This document shows positions 23,786-59,468 of a stretch of 64,000 nt of DNA, one piece after another (position 1 is the stretch's first letter; every line of letters begins with the position of its first letter). The notes below the pieces were generated by a model. It was not told the origin of the DNA. It saw only the letters and a program-made list of their open reading frames with translations, and did no database searches. The DNA is from Actinoalloteichus fjordicus (GTDB taxonomy: Bacteria > Actinomycetota > Actinomycetes > Mycobacteriales > Pseudonocardiaceae), in contig NZ_CP016076.1 of assembly GCF_001941625.1 (NCBI RefSeq), positions 5,502,001 through 5,566,000 on the forward strand, written 5' to 3'. The position numbers were made by a program, and so were the translations under genes.

Positions 23786-26134
23786 ATGGACCCGTTGTCA
23801 AATTCTTCGCATGGTCCGAACGATGGCTCGCAGTGCGAAGACATCCGTCGCGAACAGGACTACGTGTCGATGCTCTACGGCCGCGTCGACGAACTGCGCA
23901 AGGAGACGACCGCCCGTCATGCCGCCGTGCTCGGCCAGGAACACGCGGGGACGCCGCAGGCCTGGCTGGAACGCGACATAGCCGCCGCCATGTACGCCGA
24001 GGAGCTGACCCGGCTGCGCGACGTCGAAGAGGGCCTCTACTTCGGCAGGCTGGACCTGGCGAGCGGCGGACGGCGGCACATCGGGAGGCTGGGGCTCTCG
24101 GACGACAGCGAGGACCCCTCCGACGGCAACGACTACGAGCCGCTGCTGATGGACTGGCGTGCCCCGGCGGCACGCCCCTTCTACACGGCCACCGCCGCGT
24201 CACCGGAGGACGTGCGGATGCGGCGCCACGTCCGGACTCGGGCTCGCAAGGTCCTCACGATCGACGACGAGGTGCTCGATCTCGCCGCCGCGGAGAGCGC
24301 CGGGTCGGGCTCCCTCACCGGGGAGGCGGCCCTGCTCGCGGCGATGAGCCGCAGCCGGACCGGCCGGATGACCGACATCGTCGCGACCATCCAGCAGGAG
24401 CAGGACCGGATCATCCGCTCGCCCCGCAGCGGCGTCCTGGTCGTCCAGGGCGGGCCGGGCACCGGAAAGACGGCCGTCGCACTGCACCGCACCGCCTATC
24501 TGCTTTACACCCACCGTGATCAGCTCGCCAAGCGCGGCACCCTGGTGATCGGGCCGAACCCGACGTTCCTGCGCTACATCAGTCAGGTCCTGCCCTCGCT
24601 CGGCGAGACGGGCGTGGTGTTGTCGACCGTCGCAGAGCTGTATCCCGGCATCACCGCGACCCGGCAGGAGTCGGCCGCCGTCGCCGCGCTCAAGGGCGAC
24701 GCGGCGATGATCAAACTCATGGCCGCCGCCGTGAAGGACCGCCAGACCGTGCCGAGGAAGCCGATCGAGATTCAGGTCGATCGGGAGGCGGTCGTCATCG
24801 ATCGCGCGATGGTCACTCAGGCCCGAGGCCGGGCCAGACGCTCCCGACGCCCGCACAACGACGCCAAGGAGATCTTCCTCCGCGAGATGTTCTCCGCGAT
24901 GACGTTGCAGATCGCGGACCGGCTCGGCAGGCACCTGTTGGACCGTGCCGACCTCGACGACATCAAGGAGGAGCTGTCCTCGGACGACGGGGTGCGCGCC
25001 ACCCTCGACGAGCTGTGGCCCACGCTCACGCCGCAGCGACTACTGCGTGAACTGTTCGGCTCGCCCAAGCGGCTGGCCACGGCGGCCCGACGGCTGTACA
25101 CCGAGGAGCAGTGCGCGGCGATGCTGCGTGCGGACGGCGACGGCTGGACCGCCGCCGACATCCCGCTGCTCGACGAGGCCGACGAACTGCTCGGCGAGGA
25201 CTCCAGGACGGCCCGCAAGCAGGAGGAGCAGGCCCGTCGCGCCGAGATCGCCTACGCGCAGGGCGTGCTGGACATCCTCGACATGGAGGAAGACCTCGAC
25301 CCCGAGCTGCTGCGCGCGGTGGACATCGTCGACGCCGCCCAGCTGGCCTCCCGCCAAGAGGAACGGCGATACGAGACCACGGCCGCGCGGGCCGCCGCCG
25401 ACCGGACCTGGACCTACGGTCACGTCGTCGTCGACGAGGCGCAGGAGCTGTCGGCGATGGCGTGGCGGGTGCTGATGCGCCGCTGTCCCAGCAAGTCGAT
25501 GACGCTGGTCGGCGACGTCGCCCAGACCGGCGCCGAGGGCGGTGCCGACTCCTGGTCGCAGGTCCTTGGCCCCTATGTCGCCGAGCGTTGGCGACTGGAG
25601 GAGCTGACGGTGAACTACCGGACGCCCACCGAGATCATGGCCGTCGCCGCCGACGTCGCCGCCGCGATCGACCCCGACCTCCGCGCACCGCAGTCGGTCC
25701 GGGACACCGGAGTCCCGCCGTGGTCGCTCCGAGTACCGCCGGGCACGGCGCCCCAGGCACTCACCAGGCTGGTGGCCGACGAGGTCGACGAGGTCGACGA
25801 CGGGCGGATCGCCGTGCTCGTCCCGGCGGCACACCTTAACGAGCTCACGGCCGCACTCGCGGACGAGCCGTCGGCGGTGTCGACTCCGGGAGCGTCCGGC
25901 GATCTGACGGCGCAGACCACGGTGCTCACGGTCGAACAGGCCAAGGGCCTCGAGTTCGACTCGGTCCTGGTCGTCGAACCGCAGGCGATCCTCGACGAGT
26001 CGCCGCGCGGCCTCAACGACCTCTATGTCGCCATCACCAGGACGACCCGACGGCTCGGCGTCCTGCACACCGGCGACCTGCCCGCCGTGCTGTCCGGCCT
26101 GCACACCCGGGTCGACTCGGACAGTGCCGTGTGA
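23786..26134 (+). CDS. helD: HelD-type UvrD/Rep-like ATPase acting on RNA polymerase
   Basis: 782 residues. HelD proteins use ATP to remove stalled RNA polymerase from DNA; some actinobacterial forms (HelR) give rifampicin tolerance. The N-terminus (about 15-110) is helical and charged, fitting the coiled-coil arm that enters the secondary channel. Motifs: Walker A GGPGTGKTAVALHRTAYLL near 222, Walker B/motif II VVVDEAQELSAMAW near 548, LVGDVAQTG, motif NYRTPTEI, and the C-terminal VEQAKGLEFDSVLVVEP and LYVAITRTTRRL. A basic segment RGRARRSRRPHND near 350 lies in the HelD-specific insertion. ATG at 23786 follows AAGGG. No rifampicin-associated inverted repeat was recognised upstream. Confidence 0.9.
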   Translation: MDPLSNSSHGPNDGSQCEDIRREQDYVSMLYGRVDELRKETTARHAAVLGQEHAGTPQAWLERDIAAAMYAEELTRLRDVEEGLYFGRLDLASGGRRHIGRLGLSDDSEDPSDGNDYEPLLMDWRAPAARPFYTATAASPEDVRMRRHVRTRARKVLTIDDEVLDLAAAESAGSGSLTGEAALLAAMSRSRTGRMTDIVATIQQEQDRIIRSPRSGVLVVQGGPGTGKTAVALHRTAYLLYTHRDQLAKRGTLVIGPNPTFLRYISQVLPSLGETGVVLSTVAELYPGITATRQESAAVAALKGDAAMIKLMAAAVKDRQTVPRKPIEIQVDREAVVIDRAMVTQARGRARRSRRPHNDAKEIFLREMFSAMTLQIADRLGRHLLDRADLDDIKEELSSDDGVRATLDELWPTLTPQRLLRELFGSPKRLATAARRLYTEEQCAAMLRADGDGWTAADIPLLDEADELLGEDSRTARKQEEQARRAEIAYAQGVLDILDMEEDLDPELLRAVDIVDAAQLASRQEERRYETTAARAAADRTWTYGHVVVDEAQELSAMAWRVLMRRCPSKSMTLVGDVAQTGAEGGADSWSQVLGPYVAERWRLEELTVNYRTPTEIMAVAADVAAAIDPDLRAPQSVRDTGVPPWSLRVPPGTAPQALTRLVADEVDEVDDGRIAVLVPAAHLNELTAALADEPSAVSTPGASGDLTAQTTVLTVEQAKGLEFDSVLVVEPQAILDESPRGLNDLYVAITRTTRRLGVLHTGDLPAVLSGLHTRVDSDSAV

Positions 26135-26288
26135 GGGAGGACCGTGGTGCGGCGGCGCTCGTCTGAGGCGGAGCGGCACCACGTCGGCTCGGCCGCAGGA
26201 CGGTGTCGCGGCGAACGGATCCCGCTCGCGGTCCGCCCGGGCCGACACGATCAACGGCGATGGGCGACCAGGTCTCCCTCCGCTGCGC

Positions 26289-28256
26289 TTAGAGGCCGAG
26301 ACGGCGCCTGATCCAGTCGATGACTCCCCGTTTCGCCGCCGCGGGCGGCGGCTCGATCGAGCCGCCAGGCTGAGGTTGCGACGCATGCCAAGGAGGGCTC
26401 GTGTCGGCTGACGCGGACGACACCGGTCGGCCCGGTACCTCGAGGGACAGCTCACCCGCGCGTCGTCGGTAGACACCGCTCTGCGCGGCGGGCGGCGCAG
26501 GCGAGGCGGCGGTCGACGGCACGTCTGCGGCGGCGCCGCTGCTCTGCGGAGCGACCGTCTCCGACGACACTGGATTGGAGCGGGCCGGTCGAGGCGAGGT
26601 CCTGGCGCCCGGGGCGGCCTCGGACCGCCGGGAGCCCGGCGACGCGGATGCCGCCGGGGTCGGCGACGCGGCGACCCTCGGTGCGTTCTTCGCGACGCCA
26701 CTCGACCCGTAGAGCCTGCTCAGCCGCTCGTCGCTGTCGTCGCCGGGCCTCCTGCTGGGTGCACTGCTCGACGAGGTGCCCGGCGCCGAGGCAGCGGACG
26801 TGGGAACAGCGGGGGCGGGTGGTCTCGCAGCAGCCGACGGTGCACGAACCGCCTGCCCTTCGGCCGCGACCGCCGGGGCGGTCCGGTCGGGAACCTCGGC
26901 GGGAGGTGCCGCGGTGATGGACGGCCCTGCCGCCGGCGGCAGGCGGCCGGGAGCCGCGGAACCGGTATCTCCTGCCGCCCTCAACTCGGCGAGCCGTGCA
27001 TCGGTCAGGACGTGCAGCGTTTTGGCCGTCGGCAACTGGATCTGTGGCGTCATGGCCGGACGCCCCTTCCCCCGGTAAAGCTGGATCACTCCGGTGATCG
27101 AGACCCAGCTCCCCACGAGTCCGGCCAGGTCCTCGCCGTACATCCGACGCAGTCCGTCGCCGGTCGGACCAAAGCAGATGATCGCGAAGCCAGCATGCTG
27201 CCATCGCCCAAGATTGACGATGGTGAAGGTCGGGGACATCCACTTGAAGTCCTTGACGCGCCCGAAGACGGTGATCTCCTCGCCCTGGCGACGACGAAGT
27301 TCCGCAGCGTTCGCAGCAGGCAGGACATGTGGCCCGCTGCGGGGCTCGTACCGAACGGGGACTGCAGATCGATGCACGACATCGACGCTGTGCAGCACGG
27401 CAGGGGCGTCGGCGAAGGCTGTCTCACAGGCCGTCATCAGACGGCGGGTGTCGGCGGCAGTCTCCCGGATGTCGAGCAGCCTCGCGAACAGCGACGACTG
27501 TCTGGGGCTGGTGAAGTCCACAGCGGAGAAGATCAGATTCTCACCGGTGTTGAACTCGTCCCACAGTTCCGGATGCCACCGCAACGCCAGCAGTGAGAGA
27601 TCCACGACGGCGGCGGCGAAGACGTCGAGGGACTCGTCGAAATGCTCGGCTCGCCCAGGGTGCTGGTAATTGCGGTGACCTAGTTCAGGCGAGCCGAACG
27701 TCCGCAGCGAAGGCAGATACATCCCGTCGTAATCAACCAGCCGCACCTCACCTCGATCGCCGACCAGGATGTTGCCGTGTTGCAGGTCGCCGTGCGCAAC
27801 CCCGCGTCGCCGCAGCGCCCGCACCACCTCCGCCAATCGCTGCCGAACCGCCTCGATCGCAGTGGGATCACGGAGGTTGTCCTCAAGCCAGAAGTGCAGT
27901 GGACTGCCGGTAACCCAGGGCATCCGCACGATCGGGAAGGTCTCTCCGCCGATCCGCATGCCCCGAGCCAGGTACTCCACACTGACCAGGAAGTCCGCCT
28001 CGCTCGCCCCGGCGACGAATCCCGCGATCTGTTCATAGCGTTCTCGCAGGTGCTGCTTATGCTTGTGGAAGCAGCGGACCGCGTAGCGCTGCGCCCCCGA
28101 GGTGATGTCGAAGGTGACGGCGAAGCCGCCCGTGGCCGCAGTCGGGCCCTGCTGCGGATTCAACCTCGCGCGCCCCCGCCTCAGCGTTGGATCGAGGAAG
28201 GAGGTCGCGGGATTCTGGACGGCCTCGGAGTAGTCGAGCAAACTGGGCAGGTTCAT
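26289..28256 (-). CDS. protein kinase-like protein fused to an OB-like domain (TerY-P triad kinase)
   Basis: 655 residues. Residues about 40-300 form a divergent kinase domain: RYAVRCFHKHKQHL with a candidate ATP lysine, catalytic loop HGDLQHGN (155-162) and metal motif DYDG (175-178) in place of DFG; no glycine-rich loop is obvious. Residues about 325-425 (EEITVFGRVKDFKWMSPTFT to GSWVSITGVIQLYRGKGRP) look like an OB-fold nucleic-acid or oligomer-binding domain. About 190 Pro/Ala/Ser-rich residues follow and a basic amphipathic end, KRGVIDWIRRRLGL. ATG 28256 overlaps the PP2C stop by four bases. Kinase, phosphatase and vWA genes together define the TerY-phosphorylation triad. Substrates are unknown. 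Confidence 0.85.
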   Translation of the reverse strand: MNLPSLLDYSEAVQNPATSFLDPTLRRGRARLNPQQGPTAATGGFAVTFDITSGAQRYAVRCFHKHKQHLRERYEQIAGFVAGASEADFLVSVEYLARGMRIGGETFPIVRMPWVTGSPLHFWLEDNLRDPTAIEAVRQRLAEVVRALRRRGVAHGDLQHGNILVGDRGEVRLVDYDGMYLPSLRTFGSPELGHRNYQHPGRAEHFDESLDVFAAAVVDLSLLALRWHPELWDEFNTGENLIFSAVDFTSPRQSSLFARLLDIRETAADTRRLMTACETAFADAPAVLHSVDVVHRSAVPVRYEPRSGPHVLPAANAAELRRRQGEEITVFGRVKDFKWMSPTFTIVNLGRWQHAGFAIICFGPTGDGLRRMYGEDLAGLVGSWVSITGVIQLYRGKGRPAMTPQIQLPTAKTLHVLTDARLAELRAAGDTGSAAPGRLPPAAGPSITAAPPAEVPDRTAPAVAAEGQAVRAPSAAARPPAPAVPTSAASAPGTSSSSAPSRRPGDDSDERLSRLYGSSGVAKNAPRVAASPTPAASASPGSRRSEAAPGARTSPRPARSNPVSSETVAPQSSGAAADVPSTAASPAPPAAQSGVYRRRAGELSLEVPGRPVSSASADTSPPWHASQPQPGGSIEPPPAAAKRGVIDWIRRRLGL

Positions 28257-28957
28257 GTCCTGATCACGCACGCGGTAGTGTCGTCGTTGGCGAGACCCTC
28301 GTCTCGATAACCCGCGATGATCGCAGCAAAGGCCTGTTGATCTCCCGTCCAGTCGGCCTTGGCGAAGCGGGGCAGTCTGATCTTCGGACCGCTCCGTTCC
28401 AGCCGCCGCATCAGGAATGCCGCCAACGCATCGGTCACCAGCAAAAACCGGTCGCCCGTGCGGTACTCACCGCGCTGGTCGATTGATCGGGGCCCGCCGT
28501 CGGTGCGCACCAGGCTCGGGAACCGGGTGAACTCCGCCGCCGAGGCAACGGGCCCGAACCTGACGACTCGGTTATTCCGCAGATGGAGGTAGCAGGCATC
28601 GCCGACGGCAATCACCTGGTAGCCACCGTCGCGGAGGCTCAGGCCGACGAACGCCGCTGCACTGCCCTGCCGGAGCTTCTCCTGCGCGACCCAGGACGTG
28701 GCTTGCGCAGCGGTCTCCGTTTCCCACCTCTTCCGAAGCAGCGGCAGCACGTTCGTCGCAGACGGGTCCGTCCCATCCGAGAGAAACGACTCGACGAGGA
28801 TGCGCGCCCAGACCTCGGATCGGGCGGCCGTGGATGCCCCGTCCGCGACGGCAAAGCGGCCCGCTGCCTCGTCGTAGCCCACCTGATCCTCGTTCTCCGA
28901 CTCCTCCCTGCCGTTCTTGGGCACAGAGTAGGAGAACGCTCGATGCACCGACTTCAT
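28253..28957 (-). CDS. PP2C-type protein phosphatase (TerY-P triad)
   Basis: 234 residues, soluble. Metal-dependent Ser/Thr phosphatase motifs are visible: NEDQVGYDEAAGRFAVADGAS (N-terminal aspartates), VIAVGDACYLHLRNN, FLLVTDALAAFL and the C-terminal NDDTTACVIR. It starts 5 bases after the vWA gene and overlaps the kinase gene by four, so all three are coupled. Expected role: reverse the phosphorylation placed by the neighbouring kinase, probably on the vWA protein or a partner. Confidence 0.88.
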   Translation of the reverse strand: MKSVHRAFSYSVPKNGREESENEDQVGYDEAAGRFAVADGASTAARSEVWARILVESFLSDGTDPSATNVLPLLRKRWETETAAQATSWVAQEKLRQGSAAAFVGLSLRDGGYQVIAVGDACYLHLRNNRVVRFGPVASAAEFTRFPSLVRTDGGPRSIDQRGEYRTGDRFLLVTDALAAFLMRRLERSGPKIRLPRFAKADWTGDQQAFAAIIAGYRDEGLANDDTTACVIRT

Positions 28958-28962
28958 CGAGA

Positions 28963-29835
28963 TCAGCCCGCTGCCGACGTGCCGTCGGTGAGTTCCCGCA
29001 GTCCGGTCGGCGTCGCCGCCCGCGTGCCGATGTCCAAGAACTCCGTGACGACGGCCGCTTGCGCGTTGTATAGAAATCCTCGTGACTCTGGAGCGATCGA
29101 GTATCCGAAGCTTGCAGCAGCGTCCTTCATGCCTGCGGGCAGGACGCTGGACATGTCGAAGAGCTTCACGGCGTACCGATCAGGCAGCCCGGCAGCAGAG
29201 TCAGGAAACAGAACCTGGTGGTTCGACAGAGCAGAGATGTGCACGTTGAACAGCAGCACGGGGCCGTCATCCGTCATCACCGTCCGCAACCGTGCTGCGG
29301 CCTCAGCGGGGTCGCCGTCTGTGCTCACCCCATCGGTGAGATTAATGACGATCGGCGGAAGGCTCGCCGGATGGGCAGCACACCACTGAGTCACGACGGA
29401 TTCCGCAGCTGCCAGTGCCGCGACCATGGGAGTGGCGCCGTTGGTCTCCGGATCGATCCAGACAGGACTCGAGATCGTCTGCTCGACAACACCGCCAGCC
29501 CCGTCTGGAATCTTCTTCAGGATCTGGTCAATGCGCCGTGGGTTGTTCGCCACCTCGCTGATCGGCAGCAGTGGACGATCGAAGTCCGCACCGTGCAACA
29601 GGGAGTCGACGGTTCCGCCATATCCGATGACGCCGACGTCGAAGTAGTCGTGGAACCTGTCGTCCCCCTTGCTGCACAACAGCGAGGCGGAGCCGAGAAC
29701 CCGGTTGACGATCAGCGCCAGGTATTCGGCCTTCGACCCCCCGACGTCCGGCCAGGTCTCACCCATTGAGTACGACTGGTCGATGAGCAGCAGAAGGCAG
29801 GCCGGATGCTTCCGGCTGATCTCGGCGGTGTACAT
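28963..29835 (-). CDS. TerY-like von Willebrand factor A protein
   Basis: 290 residues, cytoplasmic. Metal-ion-dependent adhesion site: LLLIDQSYSMG gives the DxSxS motif (Asp19, Ser21, Ser23), the threonine lies in NGATPMVAAL and the final aspartate in NLTDGVSTDGD. The TerY group of vWA proteins works with the tellurite-resistance/stress network and, in this triad arrangement, with a kinase and PP2C phosphatase; the vWA protein is presumed to be a scaffold whose binding is switched by phosphorylation. ATG at 29835 begins MYTAEISRKHP. The 292 bp to the divergent GNAT gene hold its promoter; no classic ter genes (terD, terC, terB) are in the window. Confidence 0.88.
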   Translation of the reverse strand: MYTAEISRKHPACLLLLIDQSYSMGETWPDVGGSKAEYLALIVNRVLGSASLLCSKGDDRFHDYFDVGVIGYGGTVDSLLHGADFDRPLLPISEVANNPRRIDQILKKIPDGAGGVVEQTISSPVWIDPETNGATPMVAALAAAESVVTQWCAAHPASLPPIVINLTDGVSTDGDPAEAAARLRTVMTDDGPVLLFNVHISALSNHQVLFPDSAAGLPDRYAVKLFDMSSVLPAGMKDAAASFGYSIAPESRGFLYNAQAAVVTEFLDIGTRAATPTGLRELTDGTSAAG

Positions 29836-30127
29836 CAACGTCCCCTGTCTCCTGGGCCCCGCACCAGTAGGCGCGGGTAGCGAACTCGCACCGCGAACGC
29901 ACTCCCCCGAACGCGAACACGATTTCCGATGTGACGGACGTCTCGACGCTATCAAGTCGATGCTCCTCGACCTTCCAGAGGGCGCAGTTGAAACCCGAGA
30001 AGGCGCGAGATCGTCGAAGACAAGCTGCAACCCAGCCGTCCTCCCGCATCTCCCTGGTTCCGAACAAACGAATCGCACTCCGCAGGTAACATCTGGCCTC
30101 CGCAGATCGTCACCTCGGAGGAAGTGC

Positions 30128-30727
30128 ATGACCAGGCCGCCCGACGTCCGCCCGATCACCGAGGCGGATCTGCCTCGTGCGGTGGAGACCCTCGGCGCCG
30201 CCTTCCGCGACTACCCGTACCTGCGACATGTCGTCGACGCCAGGGACCACCTGCGCCGGGTGACACGCTTTCAGGAGCTGTTCCTGGTCGAGCTCGGAAT
30301 GCCGCACGGCCGGGTGTGGGTGGCCGATGGCGGGGATGCGGTGGCGGCATGGACCGTCCCGGACGCACCCGATGCAGGCGAGGTCCTCGCCGGGCTCGGC
30401 CCGGAGCTCGCCGAGCTGGCAGGCGAGCGCGCGACTGCCGCGTCGTCGGCCGAGGCCGCCCTGGCCCCGCATCGGCCGACGGAGCCGGTGTGGTTCCTCG
30501 GCACCGTGGGGGTTCATCCCGACCGGCAGGGCCGAGGACTGGGGAGGGCGGTGCTCCGGCCGGGGATCGACGCTGCCGAGGCCGCAGGCGTCACCGCCTT
30601 CCTGGAGACCTCCACGGAGCGCAACGTGGCCTTCTACCAACAACTCGGCTTCGTCGTCACGGCCGACGTCGAGCTGCCCGACGGCGGCCCCCGCACCTGG
30701 TGCATGACACGCAGGCCGACCGGCTGA
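30128..30727 (+). CDS. GNAT family N-acetyltransferase
   Basis: 199 residues. N-terminal VRPITEADLPRAVETLGAAFRDYPYLRHV, then the acetyl-CoA loop VHPDRQGRGLGRAVLRPGI (motif A, Q-x-x-G-x-G) and the C-terminal motif TSTERNVAFYQQLGFVVTADVELPDGGPRTWCMTR. The overall shape (W-rich, F.DYP.L at the N-terminus) resembles the GNAT group often annotated as puromycin- or aminoglycoside-type acetyltransferases, but the substrate is unknown. GGAGG precedes the ATG. It is divergent from the TerY-P operon. Confidence 0.9.
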   Translation: MTRPPDVRPITEADLPRAVETLGAAFRDYPYLRHVVDARDHLRRVTRFQELFLVELGMPHGRVWVADGGDAVAAWTVPDAPDAGEVLAGLGPELAELAGERATAASSAEAALAPHRPTEPVWFLGTVGVHPDRQGRGLGRAVLRPGIDAAEAAGVTAFLETSTERNVAFYQQLGFVVTADVELPDGGPRTWCMTRRPTG

Positions 30728-40841: not shown

Positions 40842-41504
40842 CTAACGTCGCCGTCGGCGGACCCGGCGCAGCTCGTCGGCCAGGCCGCTCCGCATCCGAC
40901 TCCAGTCCTGCGGCGTCAGCGCCGGTCGTTCGCCCGGACCGCCCAGCTCACTCGCCGCCGACTCCAGTTCGGCCATCGTGGTGATGATCTGGTCGACCAC
41001 CTCGGGATGTCCCAGCGGCAGCGGCGCGCCCACCGCGTCTCCGGAGTGGGCCGGATCCCGTCGGATGATCCGGGTGGGGACGCCTCGCGCGGCGAGTTCC
41101 CGCACGAGCCGGTCGACGGCGCCCTCCGGGACCGGCGAGTCGAGGTCCGCCGCCTCCTGGTCGGGCTCGATCAGGAGCACGGCTCGGACCAGTCGCCACT
41201 TCACGGCACCGAGGAGCAGGGCGTCCTGCGTCGCGGTGCCGCTCGCGACCAGGTAGGCGGGCATGCCGTACTCGGCGAGCTCGTCCAGCAGCTCCGCGTT
41301 GGACTCCACGCCCGCCTCGGTGGCGGGAAGCCTGCACCACATCACGCGCACCCGTTCGGCCAGCGAGCGCCAGGTGCCCGGCAGGCCGCCATGGTTGGCC
41401 TCCCCTGCGGGGTCCAGGACCAGCACGGCGGGACCACCCGGCGGGCCGTGCTCGACGACGAGCGGGCCACCGGATCGAACGGTCTCGCTCCCAAAGTCAC
41501 GCAT
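40842..41504 (-). CDS. hypothetical protein, possible degenerate alpha/beta-hydrolase fold
   Basis: 220 residues from ATG 41504, preceded by GAGGAGGAAG. The order of strands (GPLVVEHGPPGGPAVLVLDP, VRVMWCRLPA, GMPAYLVASGTATQDALLLGAV, VRAVLLIEPDQE) resembles an alpha/beta hydrolase, with a serine-less elbow-like ASGTATQ, so it would be inactive if related. The tail is basic (RRVRRRRR). Overlaps the end of the dehydrogenase-like gene by 8 bases. I cannot assign a function. Confidence 0.6.
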   Translation of the reverse strand: MRDFGSETVRSGGPLVVEHGPPGGPAVLVLDPAGEANHGGLPGTWRSLAERVRVMWCRLPATEAGVESNAELLDELAEYGMPAYLVASGTATQDALLLGAVKWRLVRAVLLIEPDQEAADLDSPVPEGAVDRLVRELAARGVPTRIIRRDPAHSGDAVGAPLPLGHPEVVDQIITTMAELESAASELGGPGERPALTPQDWSRMRSGLADELRRVRRRRR

Positions 41505-42999
41505 CGACTTCCTCCTCGCCGCCGTACACCTGGTCAGGACCTCTGTTCCGACGGCCACCTGGAACCGCGAGGCCCAGATGCACCACCTTCACCACAGTCA
41601 TCTCGTCCAACAGCTCGGGGCCGAAGTGGAATCCGGTGTCGCAGCCTCCTCGATGTCGCACCGCACCGCGCCCGACCTCGCCCGCCAACGAGTTCACCCG
41701 CACGGTGCCGACCGGCAGTTCCTGCCAGGCACGCTGCGCGCGACGCATCGACGCGGTGAGCACGGTGGCGGCCCGGCCGTAGCGATCCTCGGCCGCCTCG
41801 GCGAGCGCCTGGTCGAAGTCCTCGACGATCCGGATCGCCGCGACCGGACCGAACGTCTCCTCCCGCATCACCCGCATGTCGGGAACGCAGCCGGTGAGGA
41901 CCGTCGCCGGGTAGAAGGCCCCCGGCCCGCGCGGCACCCGGCCGCCCGCCAGCGCCCAGGCTCCCCGGCCGATCGCCTCGCTGACCTGTGCGTGCACCTG
42001 GTCGCGCCGTCGCCGGTCCACCAGCGGACCCAGTTCGACGTCGCCAGGCAGAGCGGGCCGTGCGACCCGCCGGGCAGCCTGCGCGGCCAGGCGATGCTGG
42101 AACTGATCCGCCAGTGCCCGGTGCACGTAGATCCGCTCGATGGAGCCACGCCGCTGGCCGGTCTCGCTGAACGCGCCCACCGCCGCCTGTTCCGCAGCCC
42201 AGGCCACGTCGACGCCCGCATCGACGATCAACGCGTCGTTGCCGCCGTTCTCCAGCAGCACCGCGGCGCCCGTCCGCGCCGCCGACCGGGCGATGCTGCG
42301 GCCCGCCTCGGAACAGCCCAGGTGGGCGATCAGGTCGACGCCCGGGTCGGCCGCGAGTCGGGCACCGGTGCGATCGTCGCCGGAGATCATCATGAGCACG
42401 CCCGCAGGCAGCACCGAGGACAGCGTCTCGGTCAGGAACCGACCGACGTGCGGCGCCCGCTCGCTTGGTTTGAACACCACGGTGTTGCCGGTGACCAGCG
42501 CGGCGCCGAGCAGCCCGCAGGACACGCCGACCGGGTCGTGCCACGAGGTCAGCACGACCACGACGCCACGGGGCTGCGGCACCGTCAGGTCGACGGCGGC
42601 ATCCCTGCCGAGGAGACTTCGGCCCCGATGGACCGGGCCGAGTTCCGCGTACTGTTCCAGGACGTCGGCGCCCGCAAGCGCTCCCGCTCTGGCCTCGGAC
42701 ACCGGACGGCCGGTCTCGGCGTTGTGCAGCGCGGCGAGTTCGTCCACCGAGGCACGCACCGCCGCCGCCGCGGTGCGGAGTCGGCGCCCCCGATCGGCGG
42801 CCGAGGTTCGGGACCAGGCGGCGAGGGCCGACCTGGCGGTGCGCACGGCATGCGTGATCTCAGGTTCGTCGGCGACGGGGAGCAGACCGACCAGCGCTCC
42901 GTCGACCGGGCTGTGGACTCGCAGATGTTCCCGCGCCGCCTGTTCGAGCAGCACCGGTCTTGTCGTCGTGATCAATGAGCCGGACAACCCGTCGAGCAT
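41497..42999 (-). CDS. aldehyde dehydrogenase homologue lacking catalytic residues
   Basis: 500 residues, full family length. NAD-binding and fold motifs persist: VHSPVDGALVGLLPVADE, VTGNTVVFKPSERAP (Lys177), LLENGGNDALIV with Glu250, EETFGPVAAIRIV. The catalytic cysteine of the GQxC motif is replaced: the protein reads GQRRGSIERI, with Arg284 where Cys belongs. The asparagine of the PWNxP motif is also lost (SWHDP, His154). The codons read cleanly with no frameshift. It is therefore probably not a dehydrogenase; a structural, cofactor-binding or altered-chemistry role is inferred. First gene of a run with the two genes that follow. Confidence 0.88.
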   Translation of the reverse strand: MLDGLSGSLITTTRPVLLEQAAREHLRVHSPVDGALVGLLPVADEPEITHAVRTARSALAAWSRTSAADRGRRLRTAAAAVRASVDELAALHNAETGRPVSEARAGALAGADVLEQYAELGPVHRGRSLLGRDAAVDLTVPQPRGVVVVLTSWHDPVGVSCGLLGAALVTGNTVVFKPSERAPHVGRFLTETLSSVLPAGVLMMISGDDRTGARLAADPGVDLIAHLGCSEAGRSIARSAARTGAAVLLENGGNDALIVDAGVDVAWAAEQAAVGAFSETGQRRGSIERIYVHRALADQFQHRLAAQAARRVARPALPGDVELGPLVDRRRRDQVHAQVSEAIGRGAWALAGGRVPRGPGAFYPATVLTGCVPDMRVMREETFGPVAAIRIVEDFDQALAEAAEDRYGRAATVLTASMRRAQRAWQELPVGTVRVNSLAGEVGRGAVRHRGGCDTGFHFGPELLDEMTVVKVVHLGLAVPGGRRNRGPDQVYGGEEEVDA

Positions 43000-54201: not shown

Positions 54202-54512
54202 GGGTCCTCCTCCGTCAGCACGCTCTGTCGCGCCGTCACGGAGCGATTTACCCGAAAGAGTGCAAGATGACGCGCAGCGCGCCGCAGGCCCCGGCGGATT
54301 CGCCGCCAATTACCCCGTGTCTGGCCGGGGACCAGCCGCCCGCCAGGCACGAGCCCCCGTACGTGAACACGGTGCGTGACGCTCAGGGACGGGGGTCATC
54401 ACATCGGCGGAGAAGCCAGCTGGCGGTGGCGATTTCTCACTCGACCGATGCAGTCTGGAAAGAGCGACGATGCAGTCCTGGTATCCAGCCGCGATTCCGT
54501 CAGGAGGCAGCG

Positions 54513-54746
54513 ATGGCCGATCGCCACTCGCAGGCTCGATCCCGGTCCGCCGACGAACTCCGTCAAGACGCGGACCGGCTGAGCGGAGAGCGTGCCTACT
54601 GCGTCGCCGAGCGGCTCGGCCTGTGCCCTTCCCAGGTCCTCCAGGTGCTGCACGACCTGGGCTATCGCGGGTCTGCGGCGTCCACTGTCCTCGAGCCTCG
54701 AGTCGTCAACGAGGTCGAGAGCGTGCTCATCGCAACCCGAGATTGA
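54513..54746 (+). CDS. small protein resembling the IF2 N-terminal domain
   Basis: 77 residues from ATG 54513, preceded by AGGAGG. The segment RAYCVAERLGLCPSQVLQVLHDLGYRGSAASTVLEPRVVNEVESVL matches the pattern of the IF2_N domain of initiation factor 2 (VyeLAkeLgvsskevlakLkelG...aSStve.p.v.klr), which binds nucleic acid in IF2. Here it stands alone without the GTPase part. No homology to toxins is seen. Sits divergent from the DUF1206 gene. Role unknown; translation-related or DNA-binding are both open. Confidence 0.7.
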   Translation: MADRHSQARSRSADELRQDADRLSGERAYCVAERLGLCPSQVLQVLHDLGYRGSAASTVLEPRVVNEVESVLIATRD

Positions 54747-55693
54747 GCGGGCGATGACGGGGTAATCGGCGAAGAATCGCGACCAGGTGACCTTGGCGAC
54801 CGTGACAAGGCAGGTCGCGAGTGCCACCAGAAGGGGATCGCGATGTTCGGACATGCCTCGCAGGGAGTTCCGCAGCCTCGTCCCACCGCTGAAGGCGGCG
54901 GAGCAGGCCGAGGAGGTCGGTCCTCCCCGGATTCCGCCGAAGGCGGGGAGACGAGTTTTCCGACCGACGACGACGAGATTCAACGCGCCGACCTGCCCAC
55001 CGTGTACCGAGGCCTCGACTGAGGTCCGACCGCGCGCGGTCCACGCGGCGGCTGTTCTCGAGTGCCGACCCGTTCTGCGGGTACCGGACTCCGGAGCGAG
55101 GTCGTCCGCCGACCTTCTTGCATCGGCCGCGTGCGGCACTCCGGAATGGCCGGACGGACCACGCGAGGAGCCGGGTGGCTCGAGGCGCAGGCCTGCTGTG
55201 CGGGACGCCGCCACACCGCTCGCAAGCGAATTCGCCCTGGGCGGGCGGGAGGCTCGTGGCAGAGAGACGTGTCCGAAGGGCTGATCCGGTGTCCCGGATC
55301 GATCGTTGCGCCAGCTGAGCGTCCGGTGCGGCCAGGAATCCTCCCGGGCTCCGGCGGGACGGCGCTGCGCCTCGGTCACGACGCTGGGTCGATCGCCTGA
55401 CCGACGGCCGCGCAGGACGACCGAACCGCTCGCGTCGATCGTGGCCTCGCCCGCGCACGCGGCCTCGGCGACCGGCTGACCGGAACTCCCGGCCGCGCCC
55501 ACCCCGCCACGGCAATCCCGACACGGCATGCCCCGACGGGCCGCAGCCGTGGGATTCCCGCCGCCAGCCTGCCCGTCCAGCCGGGGATGCGGCAGTCGAC
55601 CAGCACCGACGCAGACCGAGCATGAGTGACGAGGCCGCGCGACCCACGGCGTTCGGCCGGTCGAACACCGCAGCCGGTGCCGCCGAGGCGAGG
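54747..55693. other. 947 bp without a recognisable gene
   Basis: Frames on both strands give Arg/Pro/Ala-rich protein lacking motifs or good ribosome sites. One forward frame (54787-55284) has a plausible ATG but its protein shows no domain and its codon use is poor. I see no tRNA or repeat. Confidence 0.5.
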
Positions 55694-56806
55694 TCAGTAC
55701 GAGCGTTTCTCGGTCACGCGACCCGCATGCTCCGACGCCTGCCGAACGGAGACCGTCGTCATCGAACCGGTGGCCTCCATCGACTCCCGAGGGCCGCCGA
55801 CGACGGTCGGCGAGACCACGGGAAGGCGGACCCCGAGCACCCTCGCGAGTTCGTCCTCCTTCGTCCACTGCTCCACCAGGTCGGGAACCAGGCGATGGGC
55901 GTCGGCGAGCCGCAGCAGGATGGCGTCCCGCAGACCCCAGGGGCAGATGTCGAGGCGGTCGCTGTCCAACAGCTCCATCGCCGTCTCGGCCACCACCGCT
56001 CCCGCCAGGATCTGCGCCGCACGTGACGACGAGACGCCGGGCAGGACGGCGCGATGCTTGGGGTCCAGCCGGGCGAGCGGCGGAATCCAGCGGCGCAGAT
56101 CGGCACGCAGCAGCGGTCGCGGCTCCCGGTCGTGTCCCGCTCCCGCGGCGAGCCGGTTGAGCTGAGTGAGGATCTTGGACGCTCCGACGAACCGGGTCTG
56201 TCCCGTCAGCCTGCGGCGCGGGCCCCGCAAGGCACGTTCGAGCACCTCGCGGACATGGGCCGTCAGCAGTTCCGTCTGCGGCGCCGACGGCGAGTCGGCA
56301 AGGAACTCCCTGGTGAGCCGCGCCGCGCCCAGCGGCAGCGAGGCGGCGAGGCTCGGCTCCTCGTTCTCGCCGAGCGCCAGCTCCATCGTGCCGCCGCCGA
56401 TGTCGATCAGCGTGAGCTGTTCGCAGGACCAGCCGAACCATCGATGGGCGGCGAAGTACGACAGCCGCGCCTCGTCCTCGGGACGCAGGAAGGCGAGTTC
56501 GACGCCGCTCAGTTCGCGGATCCGCCTGCTCGCCGCCTCCTGGTTCAGCGCGTCGCGCACGGCCGAGGTGGCATAGGCGAGCAGCGCGGTGACCCGGAGC
56601 TCGCGTGCCGCGAGCACACAGCGGCGCACCGCCTCGGCGACGCGATCCAGACCCGCGGGAAGGATCTCACCGTCCCGCGTGGTGGATTCGGCGAGGCGCG
56701 TGCTGACGCGGACGATCCTGGTCATCGCGGGCGGCACACCGGGGCTGCACTCGAGCATCTCCAACTTCGCCGCTACCGAGCCGACGTCGAGCACGGCGAT
56801 CTTCAT
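55694..56806 (-). CDS. Ppx/GppA family phosphatase (exopolyphosphatase-like)
   Basis: 370 residues. Actin-like ATPase fold, splitting polyphosphate or pppGpp. N-terminal MKIAVLDVGSVAAKLEMLE, LLAYATSAVRDALNQ, GVELAFLRPEDEARLSYFAAHRWFG, and the phosphate loop LIDIGGGTMELALGE, the family's key DIGGGS-type motif. C-terminal helices follow as in the family. The start ATG 56806 begins the fold. The gap upstream to the ATPase gene (56807-57176) holds the LacI operator and promoters. Confidence 0.93.
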   Translation of the reverse strand: MKIAVLDVGSVAAKLEMLECSPGVPPAMTRIVRVSTRLAESTTRDGEILPAGLDRVAEAVRRCVLAARELRVTALLAYATSAVRDALNQEAASRRIRELSGVELAFLRPEDEARLSYFAAHRWFGWSCEQLTLIDIGGGTMELALGENEEPSLAASLPLGAARLTREFLADSPSAPQTELLTAHVREVLERALRGPRRRLTGQTRFVGASKILTQLNRLAAGAGHDREPRPLLRADLRRWIPPLARLDPKHRAVLPGVSSSRAAQILAGAVVAETAMELLDSDRLDICPWGLRDAILLRLADAHRLVPDLVEQWTKEDELARVLGVRLPVVSPTVVGGPRESMEATGSMTTVSVRQASEHAGRVTEKRSY

Positions 56807-57068
56807 CGTGCCCCGGCAGCGGGGTCATAGGTCATCGTGGTCAACACACTCCTCCAGTTCGATTACCCAAGGTAGCCAATTATCGCCATATTCGCTACAG
56901 TGAGTAATTTTCACACGCGCGGCGTGCCGGTCCGGTGCAGTCGATCACCGTGAGTCTGCCCGGTCCGTCCGCACCCTGGACGGGCCTCCCATTCCGTTGA
57001 CCGCCGAACTAACGATGGCCTGGTGCGGCCATCCCTCATTGACAGTGACGGATCGCACTCCTACGGTC

Positions 57069-57082
57069 GTAAGCGCTTTCTA
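57069..57082. promoter_or_regulatory. LacI-type operator before the sugar ATPase gene
   Basis: GTAAGCGCTTTCTA contains the GNAAGCGCTTNC core of LacI/GalR-family and CcpA-type operators. The identical 14 bases recur at 63724-63737 before the DUF993 gene. It lies about 95 bases before the start of the ATPase gene, in a place suited to repression. Confidence 0.65.
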
Positions 57083-57176
57083 ACCCAAGGGCGGGTCTGC
57101 GCAGGAATCTCTCCGGCGTCGCCCGGCCTGCCAGCAGGGCCACGCGCGGGCGTGTGCCGACTAAGGGAGAATCGCG

Positions 57177-58265
57177 ATGGCCGATGTGGCTTACAGGGGT
57201 GCTTCTCGGGTGTTCGCGGGAACGCCCCCGGTCAAGGCCGTGGACCAGCTCGACCTCGAGGTCGCCGACGGCGAGTTCCTCGTCCTGGTCGGCCCCTCCG
57301 GCTCCGGCAAGTCCACCGCCCTGCGCATGCTCGCCGGCCTGGAGGACATCGACGAAGGCGCCATCCAGATCGGCGGCCGCGACGTCACCCACACCCCACC
57401 CAAAGGCCGCGACATCGCCATGGTCTTCCAGTCCTACGCCCTCTACCCCCACATGACCGTCGCCGAGAACATGGGCTTCGCCCTCAAACTCCGCCGCATC
57501 CCCAAAGACCAGATCAAAGCCAAGGTCGACGAAGCCGCCCGCATGCTCGACCTCACCCCCTACCTCGACCGCAAACCCAAAGCCCTCTCCGGCGGACAAC
57601 GCCAACGCGTCGCCATGGGACGCGCCATCGTCCGCGAACCCTCCGTCTTCCTCATGGACGAACCCCTCTCCAACCTCGACGCCAAACTCCGCGTCGAAAC
57701 CCGCGCCAACATCGCCGCCCTCCAACAACGCCTCGACACCACCACCATCTACGTCACCCACGACCAGGTCGAAGCCATGACCATGGGCCACCGCGTCGCC
57801 GTCCTCAAAGACGGCCTCCTCCAACAATGCGACACCCCCCGCACCCTCTACGACGCCCCCGCCAACGCCTTCGTCGCCGGCTTCATGGGCTCCCCCGCCA
57901 TGAACCTCAAAACCGCCACACTCCACCCCGACGGCGCCCACCTCGACGGCCTCACCATCCCCCTCACCACCACCACCCGCACCACCCTCGACACCGACAC
58001 CGTCACCATCGGCATCCGCCCCGAAAACCTCCACCTCACCACCACCGAACCCGGCATCACCCTCACCGTCGACCTCGTCGAAGAACTCGGCGCCGACGCC
58101 TACGTCTACGGCACCACCACCGCCGACACCCCCGAACGCTTCATCGTCCGCGTCGACTCCCGCACCCCACCCACCATCGGACAACAAGTCACCGCCACCC
58201 TCACCACCCCCGACCACACCCACCTCTTCCACCCCACCACCGGACACCGCATCACCACCAAGTAA
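57177..58265 (+). CDS. MsiK/UgpC-type ABC transporter ATPase
   Basis: 362 residues. Shared energising subunit of sugar ABC importers (MsiK-like). Walker A GPSGSGKST at 39-47, signature LSGGQRQRVAMGRAI near 137, Walker B VFLMDEPLSNLDA near 157, H-loop VTHDQVEAMTM near 199, then the MalK-type regulatory C-terminal domain (TIGIRPENLHL). No permease or binding-protein genes are nearby, in keeping with an orphan ATPase serving several importers. From about codon 58 (57350) onward codon use switches from the local G/C style to A- and C-ending codons (GAA, AAA, CTC, ACC), making the coding strand very poor in G. ATG 57177; LacI operator upstream. Confidence 0.92.
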   Translation: MADVAYRGASRVFAGTPPVKAVDQLDLEVADGEFLVLVGPSGSGKSTALRMLAGLEDIDEGAIQIGGRDVTHTPPKGRDIAMVFQSYALYPHMTVAENMGFALKLRRIPKDQIKAKVDEAARMLDLTPYLDRKPKALSGGQRQRVAMGRAIVREPSVFLMDEPLSNLDAKLRVETRANIAALQQRLDTTTIYVTHDQVEAMTMGHRVAVLKDGLLQQCDTPRTLYDAPANAFVAGFMGSPAMNLKTATLHPDGAHLDGLTIPLTTTTRTTLDTDTVTIGIRPENLHLTTTEPGITLTVDLVEELGADAYVYGTTTADTPERFIVRVDSRTPPTIGQQVTATLTTPDHTHLFHPTTGHRITTK

Positions 58266-58330
58266 CACCACACCGGCGACGACACGCGGGCACGACCAGG
58301 TCGTGGCTTGACCCATCCAGATGCGCCTGC

Positions 58331-58343
58331 TTACGCTTGCGAA
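58331..58343. promoter_or_regulatory. candidate operator before the LacI gene
   Basis: TTACGCTTGCGAA is a near-palindrome (TT-CGC-T-GCG-AA) in the 144 bp between the ATPase and LacI genes, about 67 bases before the start. It resembles the GCGCTT-type LacI core only loosely. A candidate for autoregulation. Confidence 0.4.
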
Positions 58344-58409
58344 TGAAAAGCGCACCCCTGCCTGTCTGGGCTGGTGATCGGCGCAGGGTCGGCCACGGCA
58401 GGAGTCTCG

Positions 58410-59468
58410 ATGTTCGATCAGCCATCGACCGGCATCGCAACTCTGGTCGATGTGGCGCGGGCGGCCGAGGTTTCCCTGGCCACCGCGTCGAGGGTGCTCA
58501 ACGGCAGCCCGCGCAAGGTCAGGGAGGACCTGCGGGCGCGGGTGATGAAGGCGGCGGCGGCGCTGAACTACGCGCCGAACGCGCAGGCCCAGGCGATGGC
58601 CCGCGGCCACACGAACGTGGTCGGACTCGTGGTCCACGACATCGCCGACCCGTACTTCTCGTCGATCTCGGCGGGCGTGATGCGGCATGCCGAGGACAAC
58701 GGCCTGATCGTCACGATGGCGAGCACGCTGCGCAGGCCGGAGCGCGAGGTGGAATACGTCGCCGCCCTGCGTGCCCAACGCGCGCAGGCTGTGGTGCTCG
58801 CGGGCAGCCGCGTGACCGATCAGGCGCTCCAGGATCGCCTCGGCGACGAGCTGGCACGCTTCCAGGCCGCAGGCGGTCGAGTCGCGATGATCAGCCAGCG
58901 ACGCATCGAGGTCGACACGATCACGCTGGAGAACCACGCCGGGGCACGTGCGCTGGCTCGGGCCCTCTACGCAGGCGGCTATCGCAGGTTCGGCGTGCTC
59001 GGCGGGCCGGAGGAACTCGTCACCGCTCGCGATCGCCTGGCGGGATTCCGGGAAGGACTAGCCGATCACGGCGCCGAACTGCCCGACGAACTCGTGGTAC
59101 ACGGCGGCTTCACCCGCGACGGCGGTTATCACGCCCTTCGTGAGCTGCTGAGCCGACGAGACGACGTGGACTGTCTCTTCGCCGTCAACGACGTGATGGC
59201 GGTCGGGGCGATGGCGGCGCTGCGCGACCTCGGCCGCAGGCTCCCCGAGGACATGGCCGTGGCGGGCTTCGACGATATCGCCACGCTGCGCGACGTCACG
59301 CCTGCGCTGACGACGGTGCGGGTTCCGCTGGAGGAGCTGGGCGCCATGGCGGTGAGCCTGGTGCTCGATCCGGAACCCGCCGAGCCTCGCACTCGACGAG
59401 TCCGAGGCGAGGTCGTGATCCGGGCCAGCACGCCGAAGGCCGGTCCGGGCACCGACATCGAGGCGTGA
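58410..59468 (+). CDS. LacI family transcriptional regulator
   Basis: 352 residues from ATG 58410 after AGGAG. HTH and hinge helix: TLVDVARAAEVSLATASRVLNGSPRKVREDLRARVMKAAAALNYAPNAQAQAMARG (11-65). Sugar-binding periplasmic-like domain follows: VVGLVVHDIADPYFSSISAGV, VNDVMAVGAMAALRDLGRRLPEDMAVAGFDDIATLRDVTPALTTVRVP. Sugar unknown. Follows the orphan ATPase gene and is the nearest candidate to bind the operator at 57069. Confidence 0.93.
   Translation: MFDQPSTGIATLVDVARAAEVSLATASRVLNGSPRKVREDLRARVMKAAAALNYAPNAQAQAMARGHTNVVGLVVHDIADPYFSSISAGVMRHAEDNGLIVTMASTLRRPEREVEYVAALRAQRAQAVVLAGSRVTDQALQDRLGDELARFQAAGGRVAMISQRRIEVDTITLENHAGARALARALYAGGYRRFGVLGGPEELVTARDRLAGFREGLADHGAELPDELVVHGGFTRDGGYHALRELLSRRDDVDCLFAVNDVMAVGAMAALRDLGRRLPEDMAVAGFDDIATLRDVTPALTTVRVPLEELGAMAVSLVLDPEPAEPRTRRVRGEVVIRASTPKAGPGTDIEA

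Follow-up and report, generated by a model that had tools for sequence, protein, structure and literature searches.

Three adjacent open reading frames (ORFs), co-oriented on the minus strand of the 7.12 Mb genome of Actinoalloteichus fjordicus and encoding in this order a TerY-like von Willebrand factor A (vWA) protein, a PP2C-type phosphatase and a protein kinase with an OB-fold domain, raise the question of which system they constitute and how it may act. We analysed them within the locus G000:C1:5502001-5566000, a stretch of 64,000 nucleotides here called the window. A sequence-only reading had recognised a TerY-P triad, regarded the kinase-OB fusion as unusual and rated the set as the best candidate for an undescribed system. 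By its sequence, the set is an actinobacterial member of the known TerY-P system of the STK-OB type. What appears to be new is the anatomy of its kinases: a long flexible tail seems to tether them to the cell membrane, and a docking-like motif is often present there in two copies.

All three window proteins match the corresponding PADLOC models TerY, PP2C and STK_OB (E-values in the table). The same models match, almost end to end, an Escherichia coli trio named TerY-P anti-phage proteins by NCBI, which identifies the three models with the TerY-P system; NCBIfam searches gave no TerY-P name, either for the window proteins at E<=1 or for the E. coli trio at E<=0.001. The fusion of kinase and OB domain has a PADLOC model of its own and is the norm of this type, and the window set displays all of its sequence features, namely a vWA protein with a metal ion-dependent adhesion site (MIDAS), a PP2C with metal ligands, the fusion itself, and adjacent, co-oriented and ordered genes. 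It does not belong to the zinc-ribbon type: the OB fold occupies the place of the C-terminal zinc ribbon of the kinase.

According to the sections of PMC11090510 that were available, Gao et al. 2020 demonstrated that TerY-P-like modules carrying an OB fold where others have the zinc ribbon defend against phages as stand-alone systems. Activity of TerY-P against T7-like phages is likewise described in the accessible part of PMC7699616, and that of PMC10889362 reports protection in Pseudomonas against Autographiviridae as the target, with survival of most cells, the OB type of that copy not being stated there. Excerpts of PMC4978471, PMC3710099 and PMC12458937 gave nothing further on the OB type. 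Protection against T7-like phages is published only for relatives of the window set. The reading as an undescribed system is rejected on the strength of the PADLOC models, their matches in E. coli, the NCBI names and the available sections of PMC11090510. Of the earlier interpretation, the triad, the coupled operon, the OB module and a plausible phosphorylation-controlled defence switch are retained, while its "unusual" fusion, already covered by STK_OB, and its novelty are given up.

The TerY and PP2C genes are spaced by five bases. With the ATG at 28256 as the kinase start, which corresponds to residue 6 of the ORF read from the GTG, the kinase gene overlaps that of PP2C by four bases; this start is the likely one in our view, since residue 6 is also aligned with position 1 of the STK_OB profile. 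The coupling read from the sequence alone, with its gap and overlap, therefore holds, as do the intact MIDAS, the HGDLQHGN and DYDG motifs of the kinase and, to the extent of the scans given below, the lack of ter genes in the window. At least 85% of 37 TerY proteins share the MIDAS residues D19, S21, S23, T135 and D168, and at least 85% of 37 phosphatases the PP2C metal ligands D24, D39, D120, D176 and D225 (window counted in both). In the vWA protein Pfam reported VWA only and not the TerY-C domain. No ter gene was present among the 19 window ORFs scanned with Pfam and no TerD in the whole host genome, other ter families not having been searched genome-wide; this fits the stand-alone OB type. 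Rfam and tRNA scans of the window returned no matches, and a promoter scan of 26100-30200 returned no promoter and one terminator-like site against 1.6 expected.

A scan of genome contigs yielded 90 relatives, of which 80 were kept; an iterated profile located the OB domain in 52 of these loci, from Actinomycetota, cyanobacteria, Paenibacillus, Proteobacteria, Planctomycetota, Chloroflexi and others. The order TerY, PP2C, kinase on one strand is kept in 47 of the 50 OB loci with enough upstream sequence (L075 and L105, at contig edges, are outside the 50), and in the three exceptions, L079, L088 and L098, neither TerY nor PP2C was found in the locus. The possibility, raised with the sequence-only reading, that the three genes are not conserved together is thus not borne out. 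No conserved fourth gene was seen, the commonest neighbour cluster occurring in six of the 52 OB loci.

The distribution is patchy. The host genome has a single match to STK_OB; among 60 related genomes (own included) seven match at E<=1e-30, and only the match in the window extends into the OB part of the profile. Four of 396 genomes in a phylum sample (own included) match at 1e-20, and two other members of the genus gave no match at E<=0.001. The neighbours of the triad are a GNAT gene and a gene for a HelR/HelD-like ATPase (23786-26134), both on the plus strand. In the same-genus genome G002 the flanking genes, HelR with 89% identity and GNAT with 84%, lie 385 bp apart, against 3,996 bp in the window, and the empty site is a clean gain or loss; in the same-genus genome G001 a match to the GNAT gene was not found either. 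At least 80% of a Rahnella triad is covered at one place in four of 5,426 complete E. coli genomes. Plasmid records contributed two matches by the window protein and one by a proteobacterial query, viral contigs one match and phage records none.

Several loci depart from the simple triad. Nocardia miyunensis (L045:6341-13971) carries two tandem TerY-P triads, the first kinase with an OB domain and the second without a recognised one, and a Candidatus Gracilibacteria locus (L051:1523-7369) has a single TerY and a single PP2C ahead of two consecutive OB kinases, one ending in a transmembrane (TM) helix and the other in a short basic tail. In Melainabacteria-type loci (L091-L096, L101) TerY is divergent from a non-OB kinase, and PP2C was not found in the locus. 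In E. coli 2EC1 (L132:4824-6763) only the OB and tail end of a TerY-P kinase are left, next to an IS3-family element and beside type I restriction genes. A large ORF (L084:9768-13910), with no NCBIfam match at 0.01, belongs to a family found in six OB loci; four of these have the ORF 65-248 bases downstream of the kinase.

The OB-like module of the kinase is real, as a structural model and a fold search confirm. Residues 309-432 were folded confidently with 41 sequences, and Foldseek returned 105 PDB chains at E<=0.001; among the 50 matches listed are asparaginyl-, aspartyl- and lysyl-tRNA synthetase chains, MCM10, Stn1/CST, an RPA-polymerase complex and engineered OBodies, the nearest folds of these being the anticodon OBs of tRNA synthetases, MCM10 and Stn1. 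Because the query TM-scores range from 0.41 to 0.60, we interpret the domain as an OB fold without close kinship to one family. Sequence searches were less informative: no Pfam family matches the stretch, a PDB sequence search gave two chance matches at E>=0.08, and a 41-row profile gave five hits at E>=0.11, several of them OB proteins. Lack of OB similarity in the middle region, which would have spoken against the sequence-only reading, is thus not what was found. The long disordered stretch and the basic amphipathic end that it had noted are likewise supported. In the full-length model nearly all of residues 441-649 have a predicted local distance difference test score (pLDDT) below 50, and the PSTAGQ content is 72% in residues 441-646 against 38% in the core. 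The hydrophobic moment of the tail end was reached by none of 300 tail shuffles, the last 20 residues have a net charge of +4, and the last modelled helix spans residues 650-657 (mean pLDDT of 651-660, 75).

Comparison of 41 non-redundant, untruncated OB kinases (window included) suggests that membrane-seeking ends are a general property of these tails. A TM helix, called where 19-residue hydropathy in a tail segment reached at least 1.6, is present in 25 tails (23 by threshold, and the Trp-rich segments of L059 and L100 by eye), and a CFI-box in four (NF041770, E 2.6e-22 and 1.2e-21 for L046 and L058; L052 and L061 were assigned by pattern). This leaves 12 tails, including that of the window kinase, whose short, helix-like ends are mostly amphipathic. 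A hydrophobic moment above 95% of tail shuffles was observed in ten of these 12, in all four CFI-box tails and in one of the 25 TM tails. Within the last 45 residues, TM segments occur in 17 of 41 kinases versus none of 36 TerY and none of 36 PP2C proteins. A TM-like segment also follows the kinase in 17 of 28 non-OB kinases (near-copies kept). The tail of L079 carries a large domain beyond its TM helix.

On a quick tree of the kinase domains the kind of anchor undergoes at least 11 switches, compared with 12-16 among the ten label shuffles listed of 50 run, and is therefore only slightly clustered; on the same tree the OB domain was gained or lost at least four to five times. The window kinase falls into a clade of nine actinobacterial kinases (starred on the tree), and because the other eight carry TM helices, its amphipathic end occupies the place of the TM helix of its kin. 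MinD and FtsA are proteins anchored by such amphipathic helices.

Many of the linkers between OB domain and tail end carry a short motif, N..[IVLAT][LIVM]..[ILM] (NxxΦLxxΦ), with 46 occurrences in 24 of 41 linkers. Controls on the 41 tails gave a mean of 1.21 and a maximum of 6 in shuffles, 0 for the reversed pattern, and 2 and 4 for shifted patterns. Exactly two copies are present in 22 linkers, the first 15-26 residues past the OB match and the second 27-49 beyond the first. A variant, L..[LM]Y, replaces it in the window, in some actinobacterial kinases and in one Chloroflexi kinase; it occurs eight times in seven of 41 tails (shuffle mean 0.29, maximum 3), although the copy of L079 lies beyond its TM helix, outside the linker, and should not be counted. 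Neither pattern is found in ten of the 41 tails. In the window the sole helix assigned within the linker, at 516-519, coincides with the variant, at low pLDDT. The 28 non-OB kinases display a mild enrichment of NxxΦLxxΦ (17 versus 6.9 expected). Genome sets intended for independent validation, from the order of a Pseudomonas genome (1 of 244 matched) and the family of a Nocardia genome (1 of 251), gave only the centre genome each, so the statistics of the motif, first spotted by eye, come from the very 41 tails in which it was seen. Its sequence looks like a protein-docking element.

Table. Features of the TerY-P locus in the window (positions counted from the first nucleotide of the window).
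Feature	Position	Strand	Evidence
TerY-like vWA protein, 290 aa, intact MIDAS	28963..29835	-	PADLOC TerY PDLC02224, E 6.2e-87
PP2C-type Ser/Thr phosphatase, 234 aa	28253..28957	-	PADLOC PP2C PDLC02222, E 7.4e-28; Pfam PP2C_2, 2.7e-07
STK_OB kinase, 655 aa (ATG 28256) or 660 aa (GTG 28271)	26289..28256	-	PADLOC STK_OB PDLC02223, E 8.7e-87, residues 6-423
Atypical protein-kinase domain, about residues 6-304	27360..28256	-	HGDLQHGN, DYDG, Arg at VAIK Lys; AlphaFold model; domain end approximate
OB-fold domain, residues 309-432 folded	26976..27347	-	Model pLDDT 93.7, predicted TM-score (pTM) 0.86; Foldseek
Disordered Pro/Ser/Ala-rich linker, residues 441-649	26325..26951	-	pLDDT mostly <50
Linear motif DERLSRLYGSS, residues 514-524, L-x-x-L-Y form	26700..26732	-	L..[LM]Y statistics; low-pLDDT helix
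Basic amphipathic C-terminal helix, residues 647-660, proposed membrane anchor	26292..26333	-	Hydrophobic moment; model helix 650-657

The E. coli TerY-P set of the STK-OB type is composed of the same three families in the same gene order with the OB domain after the kinase, and its tail likewise ends in an amphipathic-looking helix. The window proteins score far lower (290 bits to STK_OB for the window kinase, 878 for the E. coli copy), and the window kinase has a longer tail with one L..LY motif instead of two NxxΦLxxΦ copies and sits, unlike the E. coli copy, in the actinobacterial clade of nine. The triads of ter operons and of CoCoNuT types II and III-A, as treated in the available part of PMC11090510, share vWA, PP2C and Ser/Thr kinase with the window, but their kinase bears a zinc ribbon and they stand alongside other defence genes or tellurite resistance, whereas the window kinase bears an OB domain and no such companion genes were found. 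Non-OB kinases of actinobacteria from the same family or order (L002-L005) match STK_OB with the kinase domain (E 5e-63 to 3e-74), which is followed by hydrophobic segments, a coiled coil and a helix-hairpin-helix-like stretch (by eye); they have Lys at the VAIK position, in contrast to Arg in the window.

We consider it probable that the window set is a stand-alone STK-OB TerY-P anti-phage system, working as a membrane-tethered phospho-switch and placed at a chromosomal site that is empty in a genome of the same genus. The C-terminal amphipathic helix would fix the kinase to the inner face of the membrane, with the disordered linker of about 200 residues in between, and the OB domain would sense a ligand made during infection, a nucleic acid or oligonucleotide being the most likely one. 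The kinase may be restrained by PP2C and by TerY, the latter through its metal site, probably by docking on the linker motif. Infection would then tip the balance, upon which the kinase would modify targets of the host or the phage, with failure of the phage and survival of the cell as the outcome.

A number of observations weigh against this reading. The STK_OB match of the window kinase ends at profile position 436 of 562, and its linker has a single L-x-x-L-Y variant and lacks the doubled motif. The amphipathic tails are defined as the remainder after TM helices and CFI-boxes, two of them (L071, p 0.127; L075, p 0.163, with a tail of 21 residues) fail the moment test, and hydropathy is a crude measure, as four of 41 kinase cores and two of 36 PP2C proteins pass the TM threshold somewhere. 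The tree was built without a mixture model and has long-branch warnings and many weak forks. No defence island is seen around the triad, since the ten other window ORFs tested had no PADLOC match at 1e-5, and the literature searched contained no phage assay of an actinobacterial member. OB folds bind proteins too, and nucleic-acid binding is thus a guess. Finally, the VAIK lysine is replaced by R66 in all 41 OB kinases, and their alpha-C stretch (75-88) contains no Glu conserved at 85%, which makes kinase activity uncertain. All 16 kinases found only through the other search pattern likewise carry R66, so the arginine is not a search artefact; non-OB relatives have Lys or Arg at this position. 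The same residues are what would be expected of a pseudokinase that binds ATP without phosphotransfer and provides TerY and PP2C with a ligand-gated scaffold, PP2C acting on phosphorylation by other kinases. We regard this as doubtful: at least 85% of the 41 kinases retain D162, N167 and D180 and the HGD loop, the adjacent phosphatase with its conserved ligands suggests a phosphorylated substrate, and some atypical kinases that deviate from the VAIK motif are active. The window kinase, which has the catalytic Asp and Asn and an Arg for the VAIK Lys, may phosphorylate a target.

The tail may also be read differently, the C-terminal helix and linker motif binding a protein (a partner, phage or host protein) instead of the membrane, and the TM helices of relatives serving another purpose. 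Amphipathic helices are ambiguous in this respect and the docking-like appearance of the motif would suit such a role, but TM helices follow a comparable linker in more than half of the OB kinases and are repeatedly exchanged with amphipathic ends or CFI-boxes on the quick tree, and we hold a purely protein-binding tail to be unlikely. Quite improbable, in our view, is a general phospho-switch for stress or metal response without a role in phage defence, in which the vWA metal site senses metal. The available sections of PMC11090510 refer to Anantharaman et al. 2012 for triads in tellurite resistance and a proposed metal-sensing switch, and the vWA metal site is conserved. Against it stand the lack of TerD in the host genome and of a Pfam report of TerY-C, the patchy presence with an empty site, and the stand-alone antiphage function that the same sections report for the OB type.

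The HelR/HelD-like neighbour, convergent with the triad, belongs by similarity to the RNA polymerase recycling ATPases and remains below the NCBIfam cut-offs (best 774 of 1100 bits). Large ORFs at 41263-42978, 54399-56441 and 57023-59143 of the window have no Pfam or PADLOC match at 1e-5 and may not be genes. A caspase of the EACC1 type fused to a helicase (L039:9093-12752) belongs to a blast cluster that is represented in L058 and in four OB loci of Nocardia.

The literature searched, parts of it in excerpt, offered no explanation of the trigger, location or targets of TerY-P, and made no mention of the tail anatomy, Gao 2020 and Anantharaman 2012 themselves not being covered. As a locus the window set was already known; the shared anatomy of the tails is what looks new. 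More tentatively, and with somewhat less than even confidence, we suggest that in all STK-OB TerY-P systems the kinase is a tail-anchored, OB-gated sensor at the site of phage genome entry, that TerY and PP2C dock on the short helical motifs of its linker, signalling proceeds with Arg in place of Lys, and the form of the anchor varies while membrane contact is constant. The membrane anchor, the doubled docking-like motif and the non-canonical ATP site make the mechanism of TerY-P directly testable, and also suggest a system that monitors the membrane as the place of phage DNA entry.

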